A stretch of 64,000 nucleotides of DNA from Streptomyces sp. YS415. Lineage in GTDB: Bacteria > Actinomycetota > Actinomycetes > Streptomycetales > Streptomycetaceae. The first letter of the stretch is position 1, and every line of letters begins with the position of its first letter. Shown piece after piece: positions 31,227 to 64,000 of the stretch. Where the stretch lies: assembly GCF_023544665.1 (NCBI RefSeq), contig NZ_JAMJFL010000005.1, forward strand, positions 186,001 through 250,000, in the 5' to 3' direction. Below the pieces are notes generated by a model. That model did no database searches, had not been told where the DNA came from, and worked only from the letters and a program-made list of their open reading frames with translations. The position numbers and the translations under genes were made by a program.

Positions 31227-31241
31227 CTGACGATGCGTCAG
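31227..31241. promoter_or_regulatory. CTGACG-N3-CGTCAG operator, site A (perfect)
   Basis: Perfect 6-bp arms around ATG, 17 bp upstream of the ligase GTG (minus strand). It is one of ten sites of the shared palindrome. Confidence 0.75.
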
Positions 31242-31302
31242 ATAGTGGGCAGAGCGTAGGGCGCCCCGCCTTGTCGGTCCAGGGGTGCGGGGCTAGCCTG
31301 AG

Positions 31303-31317
31303 CTGACGGACCGTCAG
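31303..31317. promoter_or_regulatory. CTGACG-N3-CGTCAG operator, site B (perfect)
   Basis: Perfect arms around GAC, 15 bp upstream of the acyl-CoA dehydrogenase ATG at 31333. It pairs with site A to serve both divergent genes. Confidence 0.78.
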
Positions 31318-41405: not shown

Positions 41406-42011
41406 TCAGAGGAAGCGGCCTCGGTGGAACAGCAGCGGCGGCGCGTCCTCCTCGGGCGCCCCCAGCGCGTCCACCCGGCCTACCACGATGAGGTGGTCGC
41501 CGCCCGTGTGGACGGCGTGGACCGTGCAGTCGACCCAGGCGAGGGCTCCCGCCAGACGCGGTGAGCCGGACACCGGTGCCGCGTCGTGGGCGACCCCGGC
41601 GAACTTGTCGCCGCCGCTGACCGCGAAGCCGCGGCACAAGTCGCCCTGGTGCGCGCCCAGGACGTTGACGCAGAAGACGCCCGCGCGGGCGATGCGCGGC
41701 CAGGTCGTCGACGCCCGGCCGACCATGAAGGCGACCAGGGGCGGGTCGAGGGAGAGGGCGGAGAAGGACTGGCAGGCGAAACCGGCGGGGGAGGCCTCGC
41801 CGTCGGCGGCCGGTGAGGTGACAACGGTCACCCCGGTCGCGAAGTTCCCGAGCACCCGCCGGAACTCCGCCTGCCCGACCGGCGCCCGCTCGTCCTCGCC
41901 GACACACCGCAACTCCGGCCGCGGCAGCGGCTCCACGCGCGGGGCGTCGGCCGACCTGAGATAGCGGACGGCGGCTGCGGCCATCCCTGCGTGTCCCATC
42001 ACACGGACCAT
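41406..42011 (-). CDS. Flavin reductase family protein (HpaC/HsaB-like)
   Basis: 201 residues from ATG at 42011; ATG 41999 gives 197. Core motifs of the FMN-binding flavin reductase fold: FRRVLGNFATGVTVVTSP, PAGFACQSFSALSLDPPLVAFMVGR, WPRIARAGVFCVNVLG, and GDHLIVVGRVDAL. It supplies reduced flavin to a two-component monooxygenase (as HsaB does for HsaA). No oxygenase partner is adjacent. An operator palindrome ends 3 bp before the start codon and there is no ribosome-binding site, so the transcript may be leaderless. Confidence 0.85.
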   Translation of the reverse strand: MVRVMGHAGMAAAAVRYLRSADAPRVEPLPRPELRCVGEDERAPVGQAEFRRVLGNFATGVTVVTSPAADGEASPAGFACQSFSALSLDPPLVAFMVGRASTTWPRIARAGVFCVNVLGAHQGDLCRGFAVSGGDKFAGVAHDAAPVSGSPRLAGALAWVDCTVHAVHTGGDHLIVVGRVDALGAPEEDAPPLLFHRGRFL

Positions 42012-45184: not shown

Positions 45185-45199
45185 CTGACGCAGTGTCAG
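45185..45199. promoter_or_regulatory. CTGACG-N3-CGTCAG operator, site E1 (one mismatch)
   Basis: CTGACG-CAG-TGTCAG, 32 bp upstream of the NDP-forming ligase start. It is the proximal member of a tandem pair with E2. Confidence 0.65.
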
Positions 45200-45208
45200 A
45201 TTACTGAA

Positions 45209-45223
45209 CTGACACTCCGTCAG
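45209..45223. promoter_or_regulatory. CTGACG-N3-CGTCAG operator, site E2 (one mismatch)
   Basis: CTGACA-CTC-CGTCAG, 24 bp centre to centre from E1. Paired sites suggest cooperative binding by dimers. Confidence 0.65.
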
Positions 45224-50812: not shown

Positions 50813-52009
50813 ATGAGAAGAACCGCGATCATGCTCAGCGCCGTCGCCCTGACGGCCGCCCTCGCCGTGCCCTCCGCGCTCGCCGGCGAGCGGCACACCG
50901 ACTTCGGGCGGGCCACGCTGACCGGCTGGGCCTCGCTCCCGGCCGAGACGTTCGTGCCGGGCAGCGAGCCGTCCGGTGCCGCGATCGGCGCGGGGCCGTT
51001 CAACGGCATCTCCGCGCCCTTCGCCGACCAGCCCGTCCAGGGCTTCTCCGGCATCGTGAACCGGCACGACGGCACCTATGACGTGCTGTCGGACAACGGC
51101 TACGGCGGAAAGGCCAACAGCGCCGACTTCCTGCTCCGGGTCCACCGCGTCGAGCCGGACACCCGCACCGGCGCGGTCGAGGTGCTCGGCGGTTTCCACC
51201 TGACCGACCCCGACCACAAGGTGCCGTTCGCGCTGACCCGCGCCGACCGCACCCTCACCGGCGCCGACTTCGACGTCGAGTCGATCGTGAAGGCGTACGA
51301 CGGCACGTACTGGATCGGGGACGAGTTCGGCCCCTTCCTGCTGCACTTCTCGCGCACCGGCAAGCTGCTGGAGGCGCCGATCCCCCTGGAGGGCGTCAAG
51401 GCACCGGAGAACCCGTACCTGAACGGCGGCACGCCCACCCTCGGCGGCAGCAAGGGCTTCGAGGGCATGGCCCGTTCCGTCGACGGCCGGTACCTGTACC
51501 CCCTGCTGGAGGGCACGGTCGCCGGCGACACCCCCGGTGACCTGCGCTTCAACCAGTTCGACCGGAAGGCCGGGAAGTACACCGGCAAGCGCTGGACGTA
51601 CCGGCTGGAGTCCCCGGCCCATGCGATCGGTGACGCCATAGCCGTCGACAAGCACCGCTTCCTCGTCATCGAGCGGGACGGCGGCCAGGGCGAGACGGCC
51701 CGGTTCAAGCGGATCTACCTCGCCGACACGCGGGACCGCAACGGCGACGGCGCCATGGACAAGACCCTCGTCGCCGACCTGATGGACCTCGCGAACCCGA
51801 GGAAGCTCGGCGGCTTCGGCACGACCTTCACCTTCCCGTTCCAGACGATCGAGGACGTCGTCCTGCTCGACGACCGCACCCTCGCCGTCCTGAACGACAA
51901 CAACTTCCCCTTCTCCTCCGGCCGTACGGCAGGCAAGGCGGACGACAACGAGTTCATCACCGTCCGTCTCGGCGAGCGCCTGCACGCCGATCCGCGCGCG
52001 TTCTTCTAG
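50813..52009 (+). CDS. Secreted esterase-like (phytase-family) beta-propeller protein
   Basis: 398 residues. The first 24 residues are a signal peptide (RRTAIMLSAVALTAALAVPSALA, cleavage after ALA). The mature protein has the repeated beta-propeller blocks of the family called esterase-like activity of phytase: GFSGIVNRHDGTYDVLSDNGYGGKANS, FDVESIVKAYDGTYWIGDEFGPFLLHF, GFEGMARSVDGRYLYPLLEGT, IEDVVLLDDRTLAVLNDNNFPF. Extracellular. Activity could be phytase or lactonase. It ends in a 4-bp overlap with the convergent pseudo-thiolase gene. Confidence 0.85.
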   Translation: MRRTAIMLSAVALTAALAVPSALAGERHTDFGRATLTGWASLPAETFVPGSEPSGAAIGAGPFNGISAPFADQPVQGFSGIVNRHDGTYDVLSDNGYGGKANSADFLLRVHRVEPDTRTGAVEVLGGFHLTDPDHKVPFALTRADRTLTGADFDVESIVKAYDGTYWIGDEFGPFLLHFSRTGKLLEAPIPLEGVKAPENPYLNGGTPTLGGSKGFEGMARSVDGRYLYPLLEGTVAGDTPGDLRFNQFDRKAGKYTGKRWTYRLESPAHAIGDAIAVDKHRFLVIERDGGQGETARFKRIYLADTRDRNGDGAMDKTLVADLMDLANPRKLGGFGTTFTFPFQTIEDVVLLDDRTLAVLNDNNFPFSSGRTAGKADDNEFITVRLGERLHADPRAFF

Positions 52010-53157
52010 CCGCGCCCCAGCACCACCGTCCCCGACGAGCAGAACCACCCGCCCGTACCGGACGCCACAGCGAGGCGCGGCAACCCGCCGTGGGATGTGC
52101 GCACTTGCCGCGCCTCGCACTCTCCGCGGAGCTGCCGCACCGCCTCCACCAGCAGGAACAGCCCTCGCATCCCGGGATGCTGGGCGGACAGCCCGCCCCC
52201 GTCCGTGTTCACCGGCAGCTCCCGCGCCTGCACGAACGCCCCGCCCTCGCCCTTCTCGCAGAACCCCAGATCCTCCAGGGTCACGAGCGTCATGTAGGTG
52301 AACGCGTCGTAGATCTGCGCCACGTCGATCTCGCCGGGCCGCACCCCCGCCCGCCGGAACGCCAGCCGTCCGCTCACCGCCGCCGGTGACACCGTGAAGT
52401 CCTGCCACTCGGACATCGTGGCGTGGGAGACGCACTCGCCGCTGCCCAGCACCCACACCGGGGCCGTGCGGCAGTCGGGTACGTACTCCTCCGCCGCCAG
52501 CAGCACCGCCGCCCCGCCGTCGGACCGCAGGCAGCAGTGCAGCTTGGTGAAGGGGTCCGCGATCATCGGTCCCGACAGGACGTCGTCGACCGTGATCGGG
52601 TCCCGGTACATCGCCTGCGGGTTCAGCGCCGCGTGCTGCCGCGCCTGCACCGCCACCTCGGCCAACTGCTCGACGGTCGTACCGAATTCGATCATGTGGC
52701 GGCGGGCGGCCATGGCGTACTTGGCGACGAGGGTGTGGCCGTACGGCACCTCGAACTGGAGCGGGCCCCGGGCGCCGAAGGACAGGTTGCCGGTCCTGCG
52801 GCCGGCCCGGATGTCCGCGCGGGCCGTGGAGCCGTAGACCAGCAGGACCGCGTTCGCGTGCCCCGCGGCGATCGCGTCCGCCGCGTGTGCCGCCATGACC
52901 TCCCAGGTCGAGCCGCCCACCGAGGTGGAGTCGACCCAGGTTGGGCGCAGGCCCAGGTACTCGGCCACCTCGACCGGGGCGAGGGTGCCGGTTCCGGCGG
53001 ACGCGAGGCCGTCGACCAGGGCGCGGTCGAGACCGGCGTCCGCGAGCGCCCGGCGGGCCGCCTGGGCGTGCAGGGTGTAGGGGGTGGCGTCGTCCACCCG
53101 GCCGCAGTCGGAGAGGGCGACCCCGACCACGGCGACTTTCCGGTTTCCGGCAGTCAT
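52006..53157 (-). CDS. Ltp-like pseudo-thiolase (steroid-type aldolase candidate)
   Basis: 383 residues of SCP2-type thiolase fold (KVAVVGVALSDCGR, ADAIAAGHANAVLLVYGS, HPGMRG). The position of the thiolase nucleophilic cysteine is occupied by glycine (VGGSTWEVM), and the C-terminal catalytic Cys loop is also absent, so Claisen thiolysis is unlikely. Ltp2-type members of this family instead catalyse retro-aldol cleavage of steroid side-chain CoA esters together with a DUF35 protein. Candidate DUF35 partners are at 47206 and 61585. Site G lies 45 bp upstream. The fit to the aldolase group is inference. Confidence 0.82.
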   Translation of the reverse strand: MTAGNRKVAVVGVALSDCGRVDDATPYTLHAQAARRALADAGLDRALVDGLASAGTGTLAPVEVAEYLGLRPTWVDSTSVGGSTWEVMAAHAADAIAAGHANAVLLVYGSTARADIRAGRRTGNLSFGARGPLQFEVPYGHTLVAKYAMAARRHMIEFGTTVEQLAEVAVQARQHAALNPQAMYRDPITVDDVLSGPMIADPFTKLHCCLRSDGGAAVLLAAEEYVPDCRTAPVWVLGSGECVSHATMSEWQDFTVSPAAVSGRLAFRRAGVRPGEIDVAQIYDAFTYMTLVTLEDLGFCEKGEGGAFVQARELPVNTDGGGLSAQHPGMRGLFLLVEAVRQLRGECEARQVRTSHGGLPRLAVASGTGGWFCSSGTVVLGRG

Positions 53158-53201
53158 GACAGGGCTCTCCCTCTGGGCATCTCGATCCGGCCCTCATAAT
53201 A

Positions 53202-53214
53202 TGACGGACCGTCA
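53202..53214. promoter_or_regulatory. TGACG-N3-CGTCA operator, site G
   Basis: TGACG-GAC-CGTCA is perfect over 5-bp arms (the sixth pair is A/G). It lies between the divergent pseudo-thiolase and acyl-CoA dehydrogenase genes, 22 bp from the dehydrogenase ATG. Confidence 0.72.
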
Positions 53215-53236
53215 GATCCGGAGGGAAGGGGCAGCG

Positions 53237-54424
53237 ATGGACGCCGGTTTCACCGCCGAACAGGTCGAGATCCGCCGCACGCTCCGCGAACTGCTCCACA
53301 AGCGGTGCGGCTCGGAGGAACTGCGCGCCGCGGTCGACACCCCGGCGGGTCACGACCCCGCCCTGTGGACCGCCCTCTCCGGACAACTCGGCCTGCCGGG
53401 CCTCGCCCTCCCCGAGACCTACGGCGGAGCCGGCTGCTCGGCGACCGAACTCGCCCTGGCAGCGGAGGAACTGGGGCGTCTGCTCACCCCGTCCCCCTTC
53501 CTCGCCACCGCCGTCCTCACCGCCCCGCTGATCCTCGCCCTCGGCACCGACGGCCGGCGCGCCGAGCTGCTGCCCCGCATCGCCGACGGCTCCCTCACCA
53601 CCGCCCTCGCCGCCCCCACCGCCTGCCTCGCCCTCACCGGCGGCAACGACGGCGACTGGGCGGGCGGCGGACGCGCGGGAGGCGTGCAGGCCCGGCGCGC
53701 ATCGGCCGCCGCGTGCAGCGACGGCTGGCGCCTGTACGGAGAGATCCCGCACGTCCTCGACGGCCACAGCGCCGGAATCCTCCTCGTCGCCGCCCACACC
53801 GGCGGCTTCGCCCGCTCCCGCACCGACCTCTTCCTGGTCCGCGGGGACGCCGACGGACTCGTCCGGACCCGGCAGACCGCCCTGGACTCCACGCGTCCGT
53901 TGGCCCGGCTCCAACTCCGGGACACACCGGGCCGGCTGCTGGGGGAGGAAGGCGCCGACGTCCTCGCTGAACTCGCCCGCCTCGGAGACACCGTCGCCGC
54001 CGTCCTCGCCTGCGAGGCCGTCGGTGCCGCCGACCGGGTGCTGGAGCTGACCGTCGACCATGTGAAGCAGCGGGAGCAGTTCGGCCGCCCGATCGGCTCC
54101 TTCCAGGCCGTCAAGCACCGCCTGGCCGATGTGTACGTCCAGGTCCAGGCGGGCAGGTCAGCGGCCTACTACGCGGCCTGGGCCACCGCGCACGAGGAAC
54201 GCGTCGGCGGGCTCGCCCTGGCCCAGGCACTGGAGGCTCTGCGGAGTGCCGCGGGGGAGGCGGTTCAGTTGCACGGGGGGATCGGTTTCACCTGGGAGCA
54301 CGAGGTTCACCTGTACTTCAAGCGGGCCGCGGGCGACGAGCTGCTGTTCGGGCCGGTGCACCGGCTGCGGGCGCACGCGGCCGGGGCGGCGCGGCTCTTC
54401 GGGGCGCGGGAGGTGCGGATGTGA
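53237..54424 (+). CDS. Acyl-CoA dehydrogenase, beta-type (FadE29-like)
   Basis: 395 residues from ATG at 53237 after GGGAAGGGG. The C-terminal domain is complete (LTVDHVKQREQFGRPIGSFQAVKHRLADVYVQ, and LHGGIGFTWEHEVHLYFKRAAGDELLFGPVHR). The FAD-binding GSD segment of the middle domain is not evident, as in the beta chains of heterotetrameric actinobacterial acyl-CoA dehydrogenases. The alpha partner could be the gene at 36704 or 31333. It is followed with a 4-bp overlap by a deazaflavin-type reductase gene. Confidence 0.85.
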   Translation: MDAGFTAEQVEIRRTLRELLHKRCGSEELRAAVDTPAGHDPALWTALSGQLGLPGLALPETYGGAGCSATELALAAEELGRLLTPSPFLATAVLTAPLILALGTDGRRAELLPRIADGSLTTALAAPTACLALTGGNDGDWAGGGRAGGVQARRASAAACSDGWRLYGEIPHVLDGHSAGILLVAAHTGGFARSRTDLFLVRGDADGLVRTRQTALDSTRPLARLQLRDTPGRLLGEEGADVLAELARLGDTVAAVLACEAVGAADRVLELTVDHVKQREQFGRPIGSFQAVKHRLADVYVQVQAGRSAAYYAAWATAHEERVGGLALAQALEALRSAAGEAVQLHGGIGFTWEHEVHLYFKRAAGDELLFGPVHRLRAHAAGAARLFGAREVRM

Positions 54425-56162: not shown

Positions 56163-56810
56163 CTACTTGGACGGCTTCTTGCCGGTCACGCCCAGATGCA
56201 CCAACAGGGCCAGATTGGGCTTGAGTTCGGCCTGCTTGACGCCCCAGGACTGGAAGCCCTTCTGGTGCGAGGCCACCGCCGCGAGCATCGCGACGAGCGA
56301 ACCCGCGACCGCGGCCGGGTTGACGTCCTTGTCGACCTTGCCCTTGGTCTGCAACTCCGCGACCGCGTCCGCGAGGGAGTTGTTCACCGAGTTGAGGATC
56401 TTCATCCGGATCTTGTAGAAGCGCTTGTCGCCCTCGGCGGCGCCGAGGTCCACCACGCGCAGGATGGCGTCGTTCTTCCGCCAGAACTCCAGGAAGCCGT
56501 CGACGAGTTCCTGCGCGGTCTGCCAGCCGGACTTGCCGACCCACGACCGCCCCGCGAGGAGCTCGGTCAACCCGGCGCCCTCCGCGGCCATTTGCTCGGC
56601 GACCTCCAGGACGGCGCCCTCGACGTCCGGGAAGTACTGGTAGAAGGTGGCGGGCGAAGTGCCCGCCTTCCGGGCGACATCGATGACTTTGACGTCCCGG
56701 TAGGGAGAGGAGCTGAGCATCTCGCTGAGGCAGTCGAGCAGCTTCTGCCGGGTCGCCTGCCCACGCCGGCCGGCCACGCGGCCGTCGACGGTACGCACTT
56801 GTCCTGTCAT
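56163..56810 (-). CDS. TetR-family transcriptional regulator
   Basis: 215 residues. N-terminal helix-turn-helix (RGQATRQKLLDCLSEMLSSSPYRDVKVIDVARKAGTSPATFYQYFPDVEGAV in segments) and a helical ligand domain with KFYKIRMKILNSVNNSLADAVAEL-like segments. It lies divergent from and 122 bp upstream of the kbpA-like gene, matching the SCO4421-SCO4422 arrangement as I recall it. Target and ligand are unknown; it is a possible, though unlinked, regulator of the palindromic sites. Confidence 0.87.
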   Translation of the reverse strand: MTGQVRTVDGRVAGRRGQATRQKLLDCLSEMLSSSPYRDVKVIDVARKAGTSPATFYQYFPDVEGAVLEVAEQMAAEGAGLTELLAGRSWVGKSGWQTAQELVDGFLEFWRKNDAILRVVDLGAAEGDKRFYKIRMKILNSVNNSLADAVAELQTKGKVDKDVNPAAVAGSLVAMLAAVASHQKGFQSWGVKQAELKPNLALLVHLGVTGKKPSK

Positions 56811-56932
56811 GCCGTCAGCTTACCGAGGGGTGATCGGAGCGCGATTCGGCCGACTGCAAATGGGGTGCCCGGCTGCCCGGAGCCTGGTGTGCCTGGTCTG
56901 CGGCGTGCACAAGGGGCCGTTACTTTGGCGAC

Positions 56933-57652
56933 ATGGCCGAAAACAGGGCATCCGGGTATGTCGAGGGCGTCCCCTGCTGGGTGGACGCCCAGCTCCCCGA
57001 CGTCGAGGCGGGCAAGCGGTTCTACGGTGAGCTCTTCGGATGGAGCTTCGACGAGCGGGGGTACGCGCTCAAGGACGGCGAGCCGGTCGCCGCGCTCGTC
57101 CCCAAGACGGACGGACGGATGCCGACCGTCTGGACGGTCCATTTCGCCACCCCCGACGCCGGGGCGCTGGTCCGGCGGATCCGGGAGGCGGGCGGCCAGA
57201 TCGTCACCGCCCCGGTCGAGGCCGGCGCCGGGGACGGGGTGACCGCCCTGGTCACCGACCCCGAGGGCGCCGTCTTCGGCCTCTGGCAGGCGGGCAGCCA
57301 CCCCGGCTTCGGGCGCCGCCACGAACCGGGCACCTTCGCCTGGGCCGAGCTGTACGCCCGGGACACCGAGACCGCCAACGACTTCTACGGCGACCTCTTC
57401 CACGAGGCCCTGTTCGGCCCCGGCGCCCGGCCCGACTTCGGCCGTGCCCCCGTCTCCGACGTCTTTCCCGCCGAGATGCCGCCCCACTTCCTCGTCCACT
57501 TCGCCGTCGAGGACTGCGCGGAGGCCGTCGAAGCCGTGCAGGGACTGGGCGGACGTGTCCAGGCTCCACCCTTTGAGACGTCGTACGGCACGGTGGCCGT
57601 CGTCACCGACAATCAGGGGGCGTCGTTCGCGCTGCTCCAGCGCTCGAACTGA
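56933..57652 (+). CDS. kbpA: KbpA-like protein, tandem VOC (glyoxalase) fold
   Basis: 239 residues with two VOC beta-alpha-beta repeats (GVPCWVDAQLPDVEAGKRFYGELFGWSFDERGY near 12, and TFAWAELYARDTETANDFYGDLF near 130). In S. coelicolor, KbpA, the inhibitor of AfsK autophosphorylation, is encoded immediately upstream of afsK, and length and position agree here. Metal ligands of active glyoxalases are not conserved in the expected places, so it is more likely a binding/regulatory protein than an enzyme. Identification rests on synteny and fold. An inverted repeat (57669-57677 with 57717-57725) follows. Confidence 0.75.
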   Translation: MAENRASGYVEGVPCWVDAQLPDVEAGKRFYGELFGWSFDERGYALKDGEPVAALVPKTDGRMPTVWTVHFATPDAGALVRRIREAGGQIVTAPVEAGAGDGVTALVTDPEGAVFGLWQAGSHPGFGRRHEPGTFAWAELYARDTETANDFYGDLFHEALFGPGARPDFGRAPVSDVFPAEMPPHFLVHFAVEDCAEAVEAVQGLGGRVQAPPFETSYGTVAVVTDNQGASFALLQRSN

Positions 57653-57815: not shown

Positions 57816-60149
57816 GTGGTGGATCAGCTGACACAGCACGATCCGCGGCGTATCGGGCCGTTCGAGGTGCTGGGACGGCTGGGGGCCGGCGGCATGGGGC
57901 TGGTCTATCTCGCGCGCTCGGCGTCCGGGCGACGGGTCGCGATCAAGACGGTCCGCACGGAGCTCGCCGAGGACCAGCTCTTCCGCGTCCGCTTCACGCG
58001 CGAGGTCGAGGCGGCCCGGGCCGTCTCCGGCTTCTACACCGCGGCCGTGGTCGACGCCGACCCGCGCGCCGCCGTGCCGTGGCTGGCCACCGCGTACGTC
58101 CCCGCGCCCTCCCTCGAAGAGATAGTGAACGAGTGCGGGCCCCTGCCGGCCCAGGCGGTGCGCTGGCTGGCGGCGGGCGTGGCGGAGGCGCTGCAGTCGA
58201 TCCACGGCGCCGGCCTGGTCCACCGCGACCTCAAGCCCTCCAACGTCCTCGTCGTCGAGGACGGCCCCCGGGTGATCGACTTCGGTATCGCCTCCGGCGT
58301 CTCGAACACCCGTTTGACGATGACGAACGTCGCCGTCGGCACCCCCGCCTACATGTCCCCCGAGCAGGCGAAGGACTCCCGCAGCGTCACGGGCGCGAGC
58401 GATGTCTTCTCGCTGGGCTCGATGCTGGTGTTCGCGGCCACGGGCCACCCGCCCTTCCACGGCGCCAACCCGGTGGAGACGGTCTTCATGCTGCTCCGGG
58501 AGGGCCCGGACCTCGAAGGCCTCCCGGACGAACTGCGCCCGCTCATCGAGTCCTGCATGCAGATGGAGGCGACCGCCCGCCCCAACCCCGCCGACCTCCA
58601 GGCCCAGCTCGCACCGCACCTGTTCGGCTCCGGCTCGGACGACAGCGGTACGGCGTCGGCGTGGCTGCCCGAGCGGGCGGTGAGCCTGATCGAGGCGCGC
58701 CGCAACGGCCGCCCGCCGGCCAGGACGGGCCCCGGTTCGGGCCGCAGCGCCGGCCGCGCGGTACCGCCGCCGCCCCCGCACGCGCCCCCCGTCCCGGTCG
58801 GCGCCCCCGACACCGGCCCGGTGCGCCTGGCGGGCGCCCAGGTCCCGATCGGACCGGGACCGCGCGTCGCCGACGCCCGTGCCGCCGCCGTGAAGGCGCC
58901 GCCGCCGGAGGCCGGGCTGGTCGCCTCCTGGTCCAAGCCGCGCCCGGGAGTCAACGGTACCGATGCCGCCGTGGGCCCCGCCGTGCCCCCGGCACCGGCC
59001 GCGGCCCCGGAGGCGGCGAGCGGCTGGCGCCCCTGGCGGTTCCGCATGTCCAACGACGTGTGGGGCACGCCCGCGGTCTCCGGCGACCTGGTCTACGTCA
59101 CCTCCTTCGAGGTGCACGCGCTGGACGTCGGCACCGGACGCCGCCGCTTCAAGACGAGGGACGTCGCCTGGTCGATGGCGGTCGCGGACGGCCGTATCCA
59201 CGCCTCCGACGGACCCACCCTCTTCGCCCTGGACTGCCGCGAGGGCGGCGACTTGTGGCGGCTGCCGACGGACGCCTGGGTCTACTCCCTCAAGGCCGAA
59301 CGCGGCACCGTCGTCACCGGCACCCGCGGTGGCGGGGTGCAGGGCTGGGAGGCGTCCACCGGGCAGAAGCTGTGGGAGCTGACCGGCGCCCAGACCGACT
59401 TCGAGACCCCCGAGGCGGGCCCCGCGCTCCACGAGGGCACGGTCTACGTCTGGCAGGACGCCCGGCTGCGCGCCCTGGACGCCCGCACGGGCGACGAGCG
59501 CTGGTCGTACCCCATCGGCGACGCGGCGTCCTGCGGCGGTGTCCCGGTCCGGGTCTCGCAGGCGGTGGACGGCTATGTCTACGTCTCCGCCGGCACCCGG
59601 GTCCTCGCGCTCGACGTCACCTCGGGGCAGGTCCGCTGGCACTTCGAGGCCCCGGCGGTCTTCCTCTGCCCGCCGGCCTTCGTGCCGGGCCCGGCGGTGA
59701 CCGGCGGGGGCGTGTACCTCGCCGACTACCTCGGCACGGTGTACGCCCTGGACGCGACCGACGGCCGCGACCGCTGGCGGATCGCCACGGAGGCCAGATC
59801 CTCCATCGAGCCGGTACTGGTGGCCGCGGGCCATGTGCACGTGGGCAGCGGCAAGGGGCTGTACACGCTGGACGCGGTCACCGGCACGCCGAAGTGGCGG
59901 TTCCAGGCGGGCGGGGAGATCGTGGGGGCGCCGTCGGTGGCGGAGGGCCGCATCCACTTCGGCTCCACCGACCATCTGCTCTACACCCTCAAGGCCGACG
60001 ACGGCCGCCTGCGCTGGAAGCTGGCGACCGGCGGCGAGATCACCGGGTCGCCGCTGGTGCGGGACGGGGTGGTGTACGCGTGCAGCAAGGACCGGTGCGT
60101 GTACGCGCTGGACGCGGAGAAGGGCACGGGCACCGCGCGCACGGCGTGA
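57816..60149 (+). CDS. afsK: AfsK serine/threonine protein kinase with PQQ beta-propeller
   Basis: 777 residues from GTG at 57816, giving [12 protein letters not shown], which is the AfsK N-terminus as I remember it. Kinase motifs: GAGGMG (residues 23-28), VAIK with Lys44, HRD (136-138), DFG Asp155, and [10 protein letters not shown]. The Pro/Ala-rich middle (about 290-400) links to a C-terminal eight-blade-like PQQ-type beta-propeller (repeated [14 protein letters not shown] / [14 protein letters not shown]). AfsK phosphorylates the regulator AfsR to switch on antibiotic synthesis, and KbpA inhibits it. No transmembrane segment is present; S. coelicolor AfsK is loosely membrane-associated. 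afsR/afsS are not found in the remaining window. Confidence 0.93.
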
Positions 60150-60212
60150 GGCGGGGGACGGCCGTCGTGCCGGGGCACGGAAAGGGGTCCGGACGGCGGC
60201 CGCCGCTGCCGG

Positions 60213-60232
60213 GAGCGGCCGGGAGGCCGCTC
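60213..60232 (+). terminator. GC-rich hairpin after afsK
   Basis: GAGCGGCC and GGCCGCTC form an 8-bp stem around GGGA, about 65 bp past the afsK stop. A second GC-rich palindrome precedes it. Confidence 0.6.
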
Positions 60233-60313
60233 TCCACCCCGACGCTACGCCGGGGACGACCCGGTCGCCACGCGGTGACATGATCGTGACAGGTGGTCAG
60301 TAGGCTCGCCGTC

Positions 60314-60808
60314 ATGGATCTTCGGGGGCGCAAACTCAAGTTCGCAGCGGTGACGACCATGGTGGTGCTGGCGCTGTCCGGCTTCTCGTCGGGCCGCGGC
60401 ACCGGCGGCAGCGGCGGGGACGGTGACTCGGGCGGCGGGTGCAGCAGCTCCGGCCAGGACCACGACGGTTCGTCCTCGCGCCAGGACGACGACCACGACG
60501 GCTCCGGCTCGGGCGGCTCCGGTTCCGCCGAGGTGGTCCAGGACAGCACGGTGGAGCTGGTGAGCTGCGCGACCGAGGCGGACCCGTACGCGGTCGTCGA
60601 GGTCAGCAACCCGAACGGCGTCAGCGACCGGGTCACCGTTGTCGTCCACTTCCTGGACGACCGGTCCGCCGTGGTCGATCTGCGGACCGTGGAGCAGGTC
60701 GTCCCCGCTAACGAGACGGTGTCGGTGCAGGTCGACCTCCCCGACGCGGCCGTGGCGGCCCGGGTCGACCACTGCGAGGCCGACCTGATGCCCGGCACGA
60801 CCGGTTGA
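60314..60808 (+). CDS. Small exported protein with low-complexity Gly/Ser/Asp linker
   Basis: 164 residues from ATG at 60314. The first 30 residues look like a signal sequence (RGRKLKFAAVTTMVVLALSGFSSG). No lipobox Cys is placed correctly, so it is secreted rather than a lipoprotein. Residues about 30-75 are almost only G/S/D/H/Q. The C-terminal 90 residues (VELVSCATEADPYAVVEVSNPNGVSDRVTVVVHFLDD in segments, ending DHCEAD with a second Cys) form an Ig-like beta domain. It adjoins afsK, as does SCO4424. Function unknown. Confidence 0.65.
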   Translation: MDLRGRKLKFAAVTTMVVLALSGFSSGRGTGGSGGDGDSGGGCSSSGQDHDGSSSRQDDDHDGSGSGGSGSAEVVQDSTVELVSCATEADPYAVVEVSNPNGVSDRVTVVVHFLDDRSAVVDLRTVEQVVPANETVSVQVDLPDAAVAARVDHCEADLMPGTTG

Positions 60809-60814
60809 CGGCCC

Positions 60815-61588
60815 TCACCTCACCCGAGGGCTCCCGGTCCGTCGCCCCGCGAACAGCTCCGCCTGCCGCTCGGCGGGCGCGTTCCCGAGCGCGATGAGCT
60901 GCGGGGCCTGGGCGAAGGCCGGGGCGCGGGCCGCCTCCTGGGCCGCCCACAGGGCACGGACGGTGCCCTGGACGGCCTCGGTGGGGTGGCCGGCGATGAC
61001 ACCGGCGCACTGCAGTGCGGCAGCCAAGTGTCCGCCCTCCTCCGTGACTTCGGAGACCAGACCCACCTCGTGGGCCCGCCGGGCGGAGATCCGCTCGGCG
61101 GTGCCCATGAGCATCATCCGCGCGACCTCGCCCGCGGGCATCCGCTGCGCCATCAGCGCCGACTCGTAGGCGCTGACCATGCCGTAGGTCGTGTGCGGGT
61201 CGAAGAAGGCGGCCGTGGGGTCGGCGACCACGAAGTCGCACTCGCCCAGCAGGTAGAAGGCCCCGCCGCAGGCCATCCCCCGCACCGCCGCGACGACCGG
61301 CTTCCACAGGTCGTTGGACTTGGGCCCGATCCTCAGCAGCGGATCGTCCTGCGAGTACGGCGAGTTCGGCTGCGGCACCACGGCATCCCGGTCGATCCCG
61401 GTGCAGAAGGCCCGCTCCCCGGCGCCGGTGAGCACCAGCGCGCGCACGGAGTCGTCGAACCGGAACGCCCGCCAGGTGTCGGCGAGTTCCCGTGCCGTGG
61501 CCAGGTCGATGGCGTTGAGCCGCTCGGGCCGGTTCAGGGTGACGACGGCGACGCCGCTGTCCGGGTCGGCGCGGACGCGCAGGTTCAC
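60815..61588 (-). CDS. Enoyl-CoA hydratase-like protein
   Basis: 257 residues from GTG at 61588 in a 4-bp overlap with the DUF35 stop. A crotonase fold: AVVTLNRPERLNAIDLATARELADTWR, AFCTGIDRDAVVPQ near residue 68 (oxyanion loop), GGAFYLLGECDFVVADPTAAFFDPHTTYG near 112. The position of the usual catalytic glutamate reads FDPHTTYGM, so a typical hydratase mechanism is unlikely. It may be an EchA-like isomerase or hydrolase for a large acyl-CoA. Third gene of a unit with the DUF35 and pseudo-thiolase genes. Confidence 0.85.
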   Translation of the reverse strand: MNLRVRADPDSGVAVVTLNRPERLNAIDLATARELADTWRAFRFDDSVRALVLTGAGERAFCTGIDRDAVVPQPNSPYSQDDPLLRIGPKSNDLWKPVVAAVRGMACGGAFYLLGECDFVVADPTAAFFDPHTTYGMVSAYESALMAQRMPAGEVARMMLMGTAERISARRAHEVGLVSEVTEEGGHLAAALQCAGVIAGHPTEAVQGTVRALWAAQEAARAPAFAQAPQLIALGNAPAERQAELFAGRRTGSPRVR

Positions 61589-62001
61589 GGCCGCTCCAGG
61601 ACCCACTGCGGAAGCCCGCCGGGAGCGAAGACGACCTGCACCCGGGCCCCGATGCGCACCCGCTCCGGCGGCAGGGAGCCGAGCGGCTCACCGGCGCGGC
61701 CGACGAGGTTGCCGACGAGGCGGATCCGGGGCGCGTCGACGAGTTCGACGAGCACGACGTTGTACGGCGCCCGCGCCGCGTACTCCGGCAGCAGGGGCGG
61801 GTGCGGGACGACGTAGGACCAGATGCGGCCGTGTCCCTTCACGGGCCGCCATTCGCTCCCGAAGGACCGGCAGTGCGGGCAGCACGGCCGGGGCGGGAAG
61901 CGCGGCTCGCCGCAGTCGGCGCAGGTCTGCACGCGGAGTTCACCGCGGGCGGCGTACCGCCAGAAGGGGGCGCCGTCGGCGTCGGTGACGGGGGAGAGCA
62001 T
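61585..62001 (-). CDS. DUF35 Zn-ribbon/OB-fold protein, partner of the pseudo-thiolase
   Basis: 138 residues with the FWRYAARGELRVQTCADCGEPRFPPRPCCPHC zinc ribbon in segments (two CxxC pairs) and an OB-fold (IWSYVVPHPPLLPEYAARAPYNVVLVELVDAPRIRLVGNLVG in segments). It is encoded 6 bp downstream of the pseudo-thiolase gene, the usual arrangement for Ltp2-ChsH2-type complexes in which the DUF35 domain is needed for aldolase activity. This is the best in-window example of the pair. Confidence 0.9.
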   Translation of the reverse strand: MLSPVTDADGAPFWRYAARGELRVQTCADCGEPRFPPRPCCPHCRSFGSEWRPVKGHGRIWSYVVPHPPLLPEYAARAPYNVVLVELVDAPRIRLVGNLVGRAGEPLGSLPPERVRIGARVQVVFAPGGLPQWVLERP

Positions 62002-62007
62002 CCTGGA

Positions 62008-63156
62008 TCAACTCCTCAGGAGCAGCGCGGAGGTGGGCACGCCCTCGCCGGCGGTGACGAGGCAGGCGGCGGCGCCGGGTACCTGGGCGGTGCTGGTGCC
62101 GCGGAGCTGCTTGACGCCCTCGGTGATGAGGTTGAAGCCGTGGACGTACGCCTCGGAGAGGCCGCCGCCCCCGGTGTTCAGGGGCAGCCGTCCGCCGATC
62201 TCCAGGGCGCCGCCCTCGGTGTACGCCCCGCCCTCCCCGCGTCCGCAGAAGCCGTAGCCCTCCAGGGAAAGCGGGACGAGCGGGGTGAAGGCGTCGTAGA
62301 TCTGGGCGACGTCGATGTCCTGCGGGGTGAGGTCGGCGTGCTTCCACAGGTGCCGGGCGGCGGTCCAGGCGGGGCCGGTGAGGGGGTCGTCGTTCCAGTA
62401 GTTGACCATGCCGTGGTGCTGGGCGGGCAGGCCCTGGGCGGCGGAGTGGACGTAGACGGGCCGCCGGGCGCAGTCCCGGGCCCGCTCGCTGCTGACCACG
62501 ACACAGGCCAGCGCGCCGTCCGTCTCCAGGCAGTTGTCGTAGAGGCAGAGGGGTTCGCTGATCCAGCGGGAGGTCATGTACATCTCGCGGGTGAGCGGGC
62601 GGTCGTACATGATCGCGGCCGGGTTCTGGTTGGCGCGGTTGCGGCAGGCCAGGGCGACGTTGAACAGGTGGTCGCGGGTGGTGCCGTACTCGTGCATGTG
62701 GCGGCGCGCCAGCATGGCTATCTCGTCGACCGGGCGCAGCAGCCCGAAGGGCCGGGTCCACTGCGCGGGGGTGGGGAGTTGGACTCGGGTGTCGGTCCAG
62801 GGCCTCGGCCCGCTGCCCCGCTTGCGTGAGCGCCAGGCGACGCCGACCGTGGCCTGGCCGGCCGCGATGGCGGCGGCGAGGTGGGCGACGGTGGCGCACG
62901 AACCGCCGCCGCCGTAGCCGACCTTGCTGAAGAAGGTGAGGTCACCGAGGCCGACCGCCTTGGCCAGCTCCACCTCGTCCGTCTCCTCCATGGTGTAGGA
63001 GGCGAGCGCGTCGACCTCGCCCGGCGCGATCCCGGCGTCGTCGAGCGCGGCCAGGACGGCCCGGCAGGCGAGGGTGCGCTCGTCCTCGGGGAGTTGCTTG
63101 GCGAAGGCGGTCTGCCCGATGCCCACGATGGCGGTGGCGTCCTTGATCCCGGCCAT
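62008..63156 (-). CDS. Ltp-like pseudo-thiolase
   Basis: 382 residues. Thiolase-like core (AIVGIGQTAFAKQLPEDERTLACRAVLAALDDAGI in segments, GYGFCGRGEGGAYTEGG, NTGGGGLSEAYVHGFNLITEG). The nucleophile position is Gly (VGYGGGSCATV; the nearby Cys is four residues off), and the C-terminal catalytic His/Cys motifs of thiolases are replaced (SEAYVHG). It therefore probably acts as an Ltp2-type aldolase or an acyl-carrying protein rather than a thiolase. Operators H1 and H2 lie upstream; H1 is 23 bp from its ATG. Confidence 0.85.
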   Translation of the reverse strand: MAGIKDATAIVGIGQTAFAKQLPEDERTLACRAVLAALDDAGIAPGEVDALASYTMEETDEVELAKAVGLGDLTFFSKVGYGGGGSCATVAHLAAAIAAGQATVGVAWRSRKRGSGPRPWTDTRVQLPTPAQWTRPFGLLRPVDEIAMLARRHMHEYGTTRDHLFNVALACRNRANQNPAAIMYDRPLTREMYMTSRWISEPLCLYDNCLETDGALACVVVSSERARDCARRPVYVHSAAQGLPAQHHGMVNYWNDDPLTGPAWTAARHLWKHADLTPQDIDVAQIYDAFTPLVPLSLEGYGFCGRGEGGAYTEGGALEIGGRLPLNTGGGGLSEAYVHGFNLITEGVKQLRGTSTAQVPGAAACLVTAGEGVPTSALLLRS

Positions 63157-63179
63157 GCTGCCCCTCCCGTTCGGCGTCG

Positions 63180-63194
63180 CTGACAGGTCGTCAG
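63180..63194. promoter_or_regulatory. CTGACG-N3-CGTCAG operator, site H1 (one mismatch)
   Basis: CTGACA-GGT-CGTCAG, 23 bp upstream of the pseudo-thiolase ATG (minus strand). Confidence 0.65.
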
Positions 63195-63206
63195 GTTATA
63201 GCTAAT

Positions 63207-63221
63207 CTGACGGGTAGTCAG
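63207..63221. promoter_or_regulatory. CTGACG-N3-CGTCAG operator, site H2 (one mismatch)
   Basis: CTGACG-GGT-AGTCAG, 20 bp upstream of the CoA ligase GTG at 63242. It serves the other side of the divergent pair. Confidence 0.65.
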
Positions 63222-63241
63222 CTAGTGGTGGGGAGGCCGTT

Positions 63242-64000
63242 GTGCGCGGTGACATGGAGTGGGGCAGCATTCCGGGGCTCGTCCGGTACGCGGCCGAGCG
63301 GTACGCCGACGCCGAGGCGGTGGTGGAGGGCCGTACCCGGATCTCCTACGCCGACCTGGGCGAGCGGGTCTCGCGGTCCACGGCGGCGTGCCTCGCGCAC
63401 GGCATCCGGCCGGGGGACCGGGTGGCGATCTGGGCGCCGAACTCCCTGGACTGGATCGTGGCGGCGCTGGGCGCGGTGTCGGCGGGGGCGGTCCTTGTGC
63501 CGCTGAACACCCGGTTCAAGGGGACCGAGGCGGCGGACGTGCTGCGGCGCAGCGGGGCGCGGCTGCTGTTCGTGACGGGGACCTTCCTGGGGACCTCCTA
63601 CGTCGCCTCGCTGCGGCGGGCAGGGCCGGCGTCGCTGCCCGCGCTGGAGCGGGTGGTGGTGCTCGCGGACGACGCGCCGGACTTCTTCACGACCTGGAAG
63701 GACTTCCTGGCGGCCGGGGAGGGGCTGGCGGGCGACCCGGCCGACGTGGGCCCTTCGTCGCCGTCGGACATCGTCTACACCTCCGGTACGACGGGCAGCC
63801 CGAAGGGGGCGGTGATCACACACGGCCAGACCCTGCGGGCGTACGGGATCTGGAGCGACCTGGCGGGGCTGCGCCCGGGCGACCGCTATCTGATCGTGAA
63901 CCCCTTCTTCCACACCTTCGGCTGGAAGGCCGGGGTGATCGCCAGCCTGATGCGCGGGGCGACGATGATCCCGCAGCCGGTGTTCACCGTGGACACGGTG
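63242..64000 (+). CDS. AMP-forming acyl-CoA ligase, 3' partial (FadD3-like)
   Basis: GTG at 63242, 5 bp after GGGGAGG, opens a frame of 253 codons that is still open at the window end. The visible half has the N-terminal adenylate-forming domain: YADLGERVSRSTAACLAHGIRPGDRVAIWAPNSLDWI in segments, LVPLNTRFKGTEAADVL, DIVYTSGTTGSPKGAVITHG near residue 176, and YLIVNPFFHTFGWKAG. It resembles FadD3, the CoA ligase of the steroid acid HIP, and FadD17/19 side-chain ligases. The substrate remains undetermined. Divergent from the pseudo-thiolase/DUF35/hydratase operon, with an operator for each side. Confidence 0.87.
   Translation, partial: MRGDMEWGSIPGLVRYAAERYADAEAVVEGRTRISYADLGERVSRSTAACLAHGIRPGDRVAIWAPNSLDWIVAALGAVSAGAVLVPLNTRFKGTEAADVLRRSGARLLFVTGTFLGTSYVASLRRAGPASLPALERVVVLADDAPDFFTTWKDFLAAGEGLAGDPADVGPSSPSDIVYTSGTTGSPKGAVITHGQTLRAYGIWSDLAGLRPGDRYLIVNPFFHTFGWKAGVIASLMRGATMIPQPVFTVDTV

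Follow-up and report, generated by a model that had tools for sequence, protein, structure and literature searches.

The afs signalling genes of Streptomyces sp. YS415 as a probable retained core interleaved with an ancestral, repeatedly lost acyl-CoA catabolic regulon

The afs locus of Streptomyces coelicolor runs SCO4421 (tetR), SCO4422 (kbpA), SCO4423 (afsK), SCO4424, SCO4425 (afsS) and SCO4426 (afsR), with afsS activated by AfsR at an afs box, and regulons of the KstR/KstR2 type place acyl-CoA catabolism under TetR control. Two genes separate afsK and afsR in S. coelicolor (PMC10936776). SCO4424 has been listed as a "possible secreted protein" (PMC3897704), AfsS is a protein of 63 aa with three 12-aa repeats (PMC2267785), and SCO4421, a sporulation-regulated TetR protein encoded near afsK, can be deleted without overt phenotype (PMC3878966). 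In the steroid aldolase TcLtp2 of Thermomonospora curvata, Tyr294 and Tyr344 form the catalytic pair (PMC12329534).

In the 64,000-nucleotide stretch of YS415 DNA analyzed here (the window), kbpA, encoding the AfsK-binding protein (56933-57652, +), and afsK, encoding a Ser/Thr kinase with a PQQ-type beta-propeller (57816-60149, +), were confirmed as originally proposed, both products exceeding the cut-offs of their curated equivalog families (NCBIfam NF053614, 431 bits, cut-off 250; NF053615, 1504 bits, cut-off 1300). The next gene, as had also been predicted, encodes a small exported-type protein of 171 aa (60293-60808, +) that is SCO4424-like by position and is retained in loci lacking the catabolic block, and acyl-CoA genes then continue to the window end. 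The original prediction further held that afsR and afsS do not follow, and that afsR might have moved. Both are found on the extended contig, where we continue the window numbering past 64000: afsR (66694-69648, -), whose product is likewise above its equivalog cut-off (NF053617, 1771 bits, cut-off 1430), still lies downstream of afsK at a distance of 6.5 kb, and an AfsS-like ORF (66271-66471, -, the same strand as afsR) lies at 6.1 kb, the pair starting 2.3 kb outside the right edge of the window. The contig extension thus rules out relocation or loss of the afs genes. The core genes, their order and their orientation are identical to those of S. coelicolor, with the exported-protein gene in the position of SCO4424. 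The difference from S. coelicolor that had been noticed is real when judged by the published S. coelicolor order, but it consists of an extra block in YS415 and not of the absence or relocation of afsR and afsS. Unlike S. coelicolor, YS415 carries a catabolic arm, a phospholipase A2-like gene and a DUF5701 gene between the exported-protein gene and afsS, and further catabolic arms on both flanks.

None of the curated family models matched the AfsS-like ORF at 66271-66471; its assignment follows from its length of 66 aa (about 63 aa being expected), its four tandem TxNVHATxxP repeats and its position directly 3' of afsR. Across the AfsS-like ORFs compared (this one and those of L057, L096, L101, L084, L137 and L113), size, position and the presence of three to four tandem repeats are constant, and the repeat itself varies strongly between species (NVHATxEP, NIHATDEP, DNNMPxPP, DSHMPAPP, NNSMPSEP, DQHATGEP). 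When the NVHx repeat was used as a regular expression, no more than 6 of 136 loci yielded an AfsS-like ORF, because the repeat sequence differs among species and not because AfsS is missing.

Catabolic genes do lie between afsK and afsR, one of the two options originally considered. This middle arm, extending from afsK to afsS, contains an operon of three minus-strand genes, namely ech, encoding an enoyl-CoA hydratase/isomerase (60815-61588; PF00378, 4e-35), a gene for a DUF35 zinc-ribbon/OB partner of the ChsH2 C-terminal type (61585-62001; PF01796, 4.5e-16; 6ok1_B ChsH2(DUF35), 2e-19), and thl, encoding a thiolase-fold protein (62008-63156; NF005892, 578 bits, cut-off 469; 6ok1_A, 3e-97). 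Divergent from this ech-DUF35-thl operon is fadD, encoding a FadD3-type acyl-CoA ligase (63242-64792, +, of which the window holds the part to 64000; NF005801, 786 bits for the whole gene, cut-off 657). Past the window follow the secreted phospholipase A2-like gene (64826-65278, -; PF09056) and the DUF5701 gene (65548-66171, +). Among the compared loci, a phospholipase A2-like gene between fadD and afsS was otherwise seen only in L032 and L090. The left arm occupies approximately 31-54 kb of the window and includes acyl-CoA dehydrogenases and the thiolase-like gene thl2 (52006-53157, -; PF22691, 1.7e-51), which is divergent from the acyl-CoA dehydrogenase gene acad (53234-54424, +; nearest solved structure 6wy8, Tcur3481). 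The right arm begins beyond afsR with an amidohydrolase gene (69850-71076, +) and continues with LLM, SDR, LLM, amidohydrolase and aldehyde-dehydrogenase-like genes, the last of these named from its sequence only.

The closest solved match to both the product of thl and its DUF35 partner is T. curvata Ltp2-ChsH2(DUF35) (PDB 6OK1), and as in that system the genes for the thiolase-like protein and the DUF35 partner are adjacent. Alignment to 6ok1_A shows both catalytic tyrosines to be present, and the Tyr344 region is conserved in 111 of 120 loci. Unlike the Ltp2 of PDB 6OK1, which has a YDHF motif containing the oxyanion-hole His, the protein has YDAF, with His replaced by Ala, in 116 of 120 loci. 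We class the 62008-63156 product as Ltp2-like rather than as Ltp2, and this replacement is the reason for considering that the substrate of the pair may be something other than a steroid.

The left, middle and right arms have in common a palindrome, CTGACGnnnCGTCAG, which we take to be unlike the KstR and KstR2 sites. As in KstR/KstR2-type regulons, palindromes stand in the divergent ligase, dehydrogenase and thiolase promoters around a TetR gene: the thl2/acad promoter contains ATGACGGACCGTCAG (53201-53215), and the thl/fadD promoter contains CTGACAGGTCGTCAG (63180-63194) and a second operator-like palindrome, CTGACGGGTAGTCAG (63207-63221). Further sites in the left part of the window precede an acyl-CoA dehydrogenase gene (31333, +; an exact palindrome at 31303-31317), an SDR gene (35804), a flavin reductase gene (41406-42011, -) and a unit containing monooxygenase and DUF35 genes (46741); on the right, sites precede the amidohydrolase gene beyond afsR (69814-69828, 166 bp upstream of the AfsR start), LLM2 (72765, 72819) and an SDR gene (94390). 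The left-hand positions (31227-31317, 35767, 42017, 45185-45223 and 46741) cover most of the left catabolic region, and this spread suggests a single regulon exceeding 40 kb. Over the 114 kb surrounding the locus, 12 sites match CTGACGnnnCGTCAG with zero or one mismatch, compared to none in six simulated sequences.

Across other genomes, the pattern is that expected of a TetR-type regulon, with the palindrome found in the promoters of the arms and gone where the genes are gone. It is present in 117/117 thl/fadD promoters and 100/100 thl2/acad promoters in the loci having them, sites with at most one mismatch occur upstream of afsR in 61/69 block loci versus 1/40 no-block loci, and site density per 10 kb is 2.03 in block loci versus 0.08 in no-block loci. 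Exact sites also cluster within approximately 50 kb of afsK in other block-bearing genomes. In the remainder of the YS415 genome, exact or near-exact sites precede an LLM gene, an amidohydrolase gene, an acyl-CoA synthetase gene and SDR genes; genome-wide motif counts by themselves did not cleanly separate block from no-block genomes, G043 having many sites. Based on these distributions we infer that CTGACGnnnCGTCAG is the putative operator of a TetR-type repressor. A search of the open-access literature for the palindrome or for a conserved afsK-afsR gene order returned nothing on point.

A candidate for this repressor is encoded beside kbpA by a TetR-family gene orthologous by position to SCO4421 (56163-56810, -; PF19352, 3.6e-73). 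Among the clustered palindrome sites no other TetR gene was found, and the start codon of this one is overlapped by a 10-of-12 palindrome match (CTGTCATGCCGTCAG). Beside the other exact or near-exact sites in the YS415 genome, a search for a TetR gene yielded no regulator. Since no-block genomes also keep this gene, another protein may be the regulator instead; we put the chance that the SCO4421-like TetR binds CTGACGnnnCGTCAG slightly below even, and it is the best candidate available. Ahead of the tetR start, a stretch of approximately 65 bp (within 56811-56935) shows almost no variation between genera and has a TAAGCT -10 and what is likely a leaderless start; such conservation is unusual given that deletion of SCO4421 has no overt phenotype in S. 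coelicolor.

The distribution of the block was examined in 80 named loci and in 100 loci from genomes drawn evenly across the genus and family. Where both afsK and afsR were seen, the block lies between them in 97 of 140 loci, with the order e-o-t-f kept in 96 of these 97. Most Streptomyces share this slot, order and orientation, as do four further genera of the same family (L195, L196, L198 and L201, the last being a stretch that ended before afsR and in which the hydratase was not seen). The block is missing from 49 sampled loci, all of which keep the afs genes. The arms come and go together: of 164 loci with room for the comparison, 92 have both left-arm genes (thl2 and acad) and all four middle genes and 48 have none, the left genes of most of the rest lying at the margin of the stretch examined or outside it. 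The right-arm amidohydrolase gene, which was not used in defining the classes, is found in 69/69 block loci versus 1/40 no-block loci. Relocation of the block to another part of no-block genomes was ruled out by a genome-wide search for the aldolase gene, which was absent from all 23 such genomes tested. Six loci appeared to carry the left arm only; in the two tested (G105 and G088, loci L179 and L158), the aldolase gene is found 17-20 kb past afsK, the middle arm having been displaced by an insertion, so that neither breaches the co-occurrence of the arms. In L109 (G112) only the hydratase gene follows afsK, although the block is complete in the near relative G064; an insertion, a deletion or an assembly problem may be responsible. 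In L090 (Streptomyces sp. TSRI0107), truncated pieces of the aldolase and hydratase genes lie between afsK and afsR, and the phospholipase gene and one right-flank gene remain. This arrangement is as expected of decay and marks L090 as an intermediate in the loss of the pathway.

The direction of change was assessed on a reference tree built from AfsK and TetR, both of which come from the afs locus itself. On this tree a two-state model placed the rate of gain at approximately zero, and a loss-only model (lnL -57.6) outperformed a gain-only model (lnL -93.7) by 36 log units, with 23 losses, or 21 when weak branches were collapsed. An independent rpoB tree, covering only 30 genomes, gave 11 changes. 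The module tree shares 48 of 61 supported splits with the host tree and conflicts at three, and module and host patristic distances correlate at r 0.87, compared to a null maximum of 0.16; neither the patchy gain nor the discordant module tree of a genomic island is seen. Parsimony alone did not favor presence of the block at the root, because the other genera at the root are not uniform, several of these outgroups lacking the block, and our use of "ancestral" is based on the two-state model and on tree congruence. Taken together, these results argue that the block was probably not inserted in the YS415 lineage and belongs to an old pathway, lost more than 20 times with the afs genes kept.

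The reading we favor, at a probability of roughly four in five, is that afsK-kbpA and afsS-afsR form a retained core interleaved with an ancestral, repeatedly lost acyl-CoA catabolic regulon; gene order, its conservation, the co-loss of the arms and the shared motif are the direct observations behind it. The regulon would comprise the left arm, the middle arm and the right arm beyond afsR, with a TetR-type repressor acting on CTGACGnnnCGTCAG to keep all of them off until a ligand appears. Upon derepression, FadD would form the CoA ester of an acid, which acyl-CoA dehydrogenase and hydratase would then oxidize, and the Ltp2-like/DUF35 pair may, judging by homology, cleave the side chain by a retro-aldol step. 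The arrangement would be ancestral in Streptomycetaceae, and loss of the pathway as a unit around the kept afs genes would leave the short afsK-afsR spacing seen in S. coelicolor. S. coelicolor is outside the sampled loci, and for its gene order we rely on published work and on near relatives. S. tendae (L096) and CCM_MD2014 (L101), which we take to be close relatives of S. coelicolor, lack the block and have afsK-afsR gaps of 1.1-1.2 kb. With the published spacing, this makes a derived loss the most likely origin of the S. coelicolor arrangement.

Loss could have proceeded by another route, in which no-block strains received the whole short afs locus from a no-block donor by homologous recombination rather than by deletion of each arm. 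Such a replacement would be a single step, and three separated arms do vanish together each time; however, the AfsK and TetR proteins of no-block strains group with those of their species neighbors, as the strains themselves do in the rpoB tree (e.g., G063, G051 and G050 beside G018, G055 and G004, and G049 beside G034), and we consider this route unlikely.

The original prediction also proposed that position links secondary-metabolism signaling with the catabolic block. The positional link is real and of long standing, and the palindrome is common to the flanking arms, but no functional connection with the Afs cascade emerged: nothing in the locus comparison or the motif scan pointed to an input of the catabolic genes into Afs signaling. 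A coupled system, in which the repressor of the ancestral catabolic pathway acts in most Streptomyces on the Afs cascade as well, through the palindrome in the afsR/amidohydrolase promoter region and so alters afsR expression, would be consistent with the position of that site upstream of afsR, its near restriction to block loci, and the weaker match overlapping the tetR start beside kbpA. Against this, the site lies only approximately 12-21 bp before possible amidohydrolase starts and so most likely belongs to that gene, palindrome sites were found in 0/102 cases at kbpA/afsK, and the afs genes survive every loss of the pathway, which argues against Afs depending on it. We judge such coupling to be quite improbable. 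If it were true, nutrient breakdown would be coupled to antibiotic onset, and S. coelicolor, having lost the pathway, could not have revealed it.

Insertion of a catabolic island between afsK and afsR in this lineage by horizontal transfer, the other option first put forward, might be suggested by the two-gene interval of S. coelicolor and by the outgroup genera without the block, but it is very unlikely given the constant slot, order and orientation across Streptomyces and in other genera, the far poorer fit of the gain-only model, the agreement of module and host trees, and the truncated remnants in L090.

As a switch for antibiotic production, the Afs cascade is textbook material, and it has been studied mainly in S. 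coelicolor; under the favored reading of a retained core within a repeatedly lost regulon, the locus of that organism now looks reduced. More than 20 parallel losses around a kept core would constitute a natural experiment on the interaction between the pathway and Afs signaling, and the conserved palindrome may provide a direct handle on an uncharacterized ancestral catabolic pathway.
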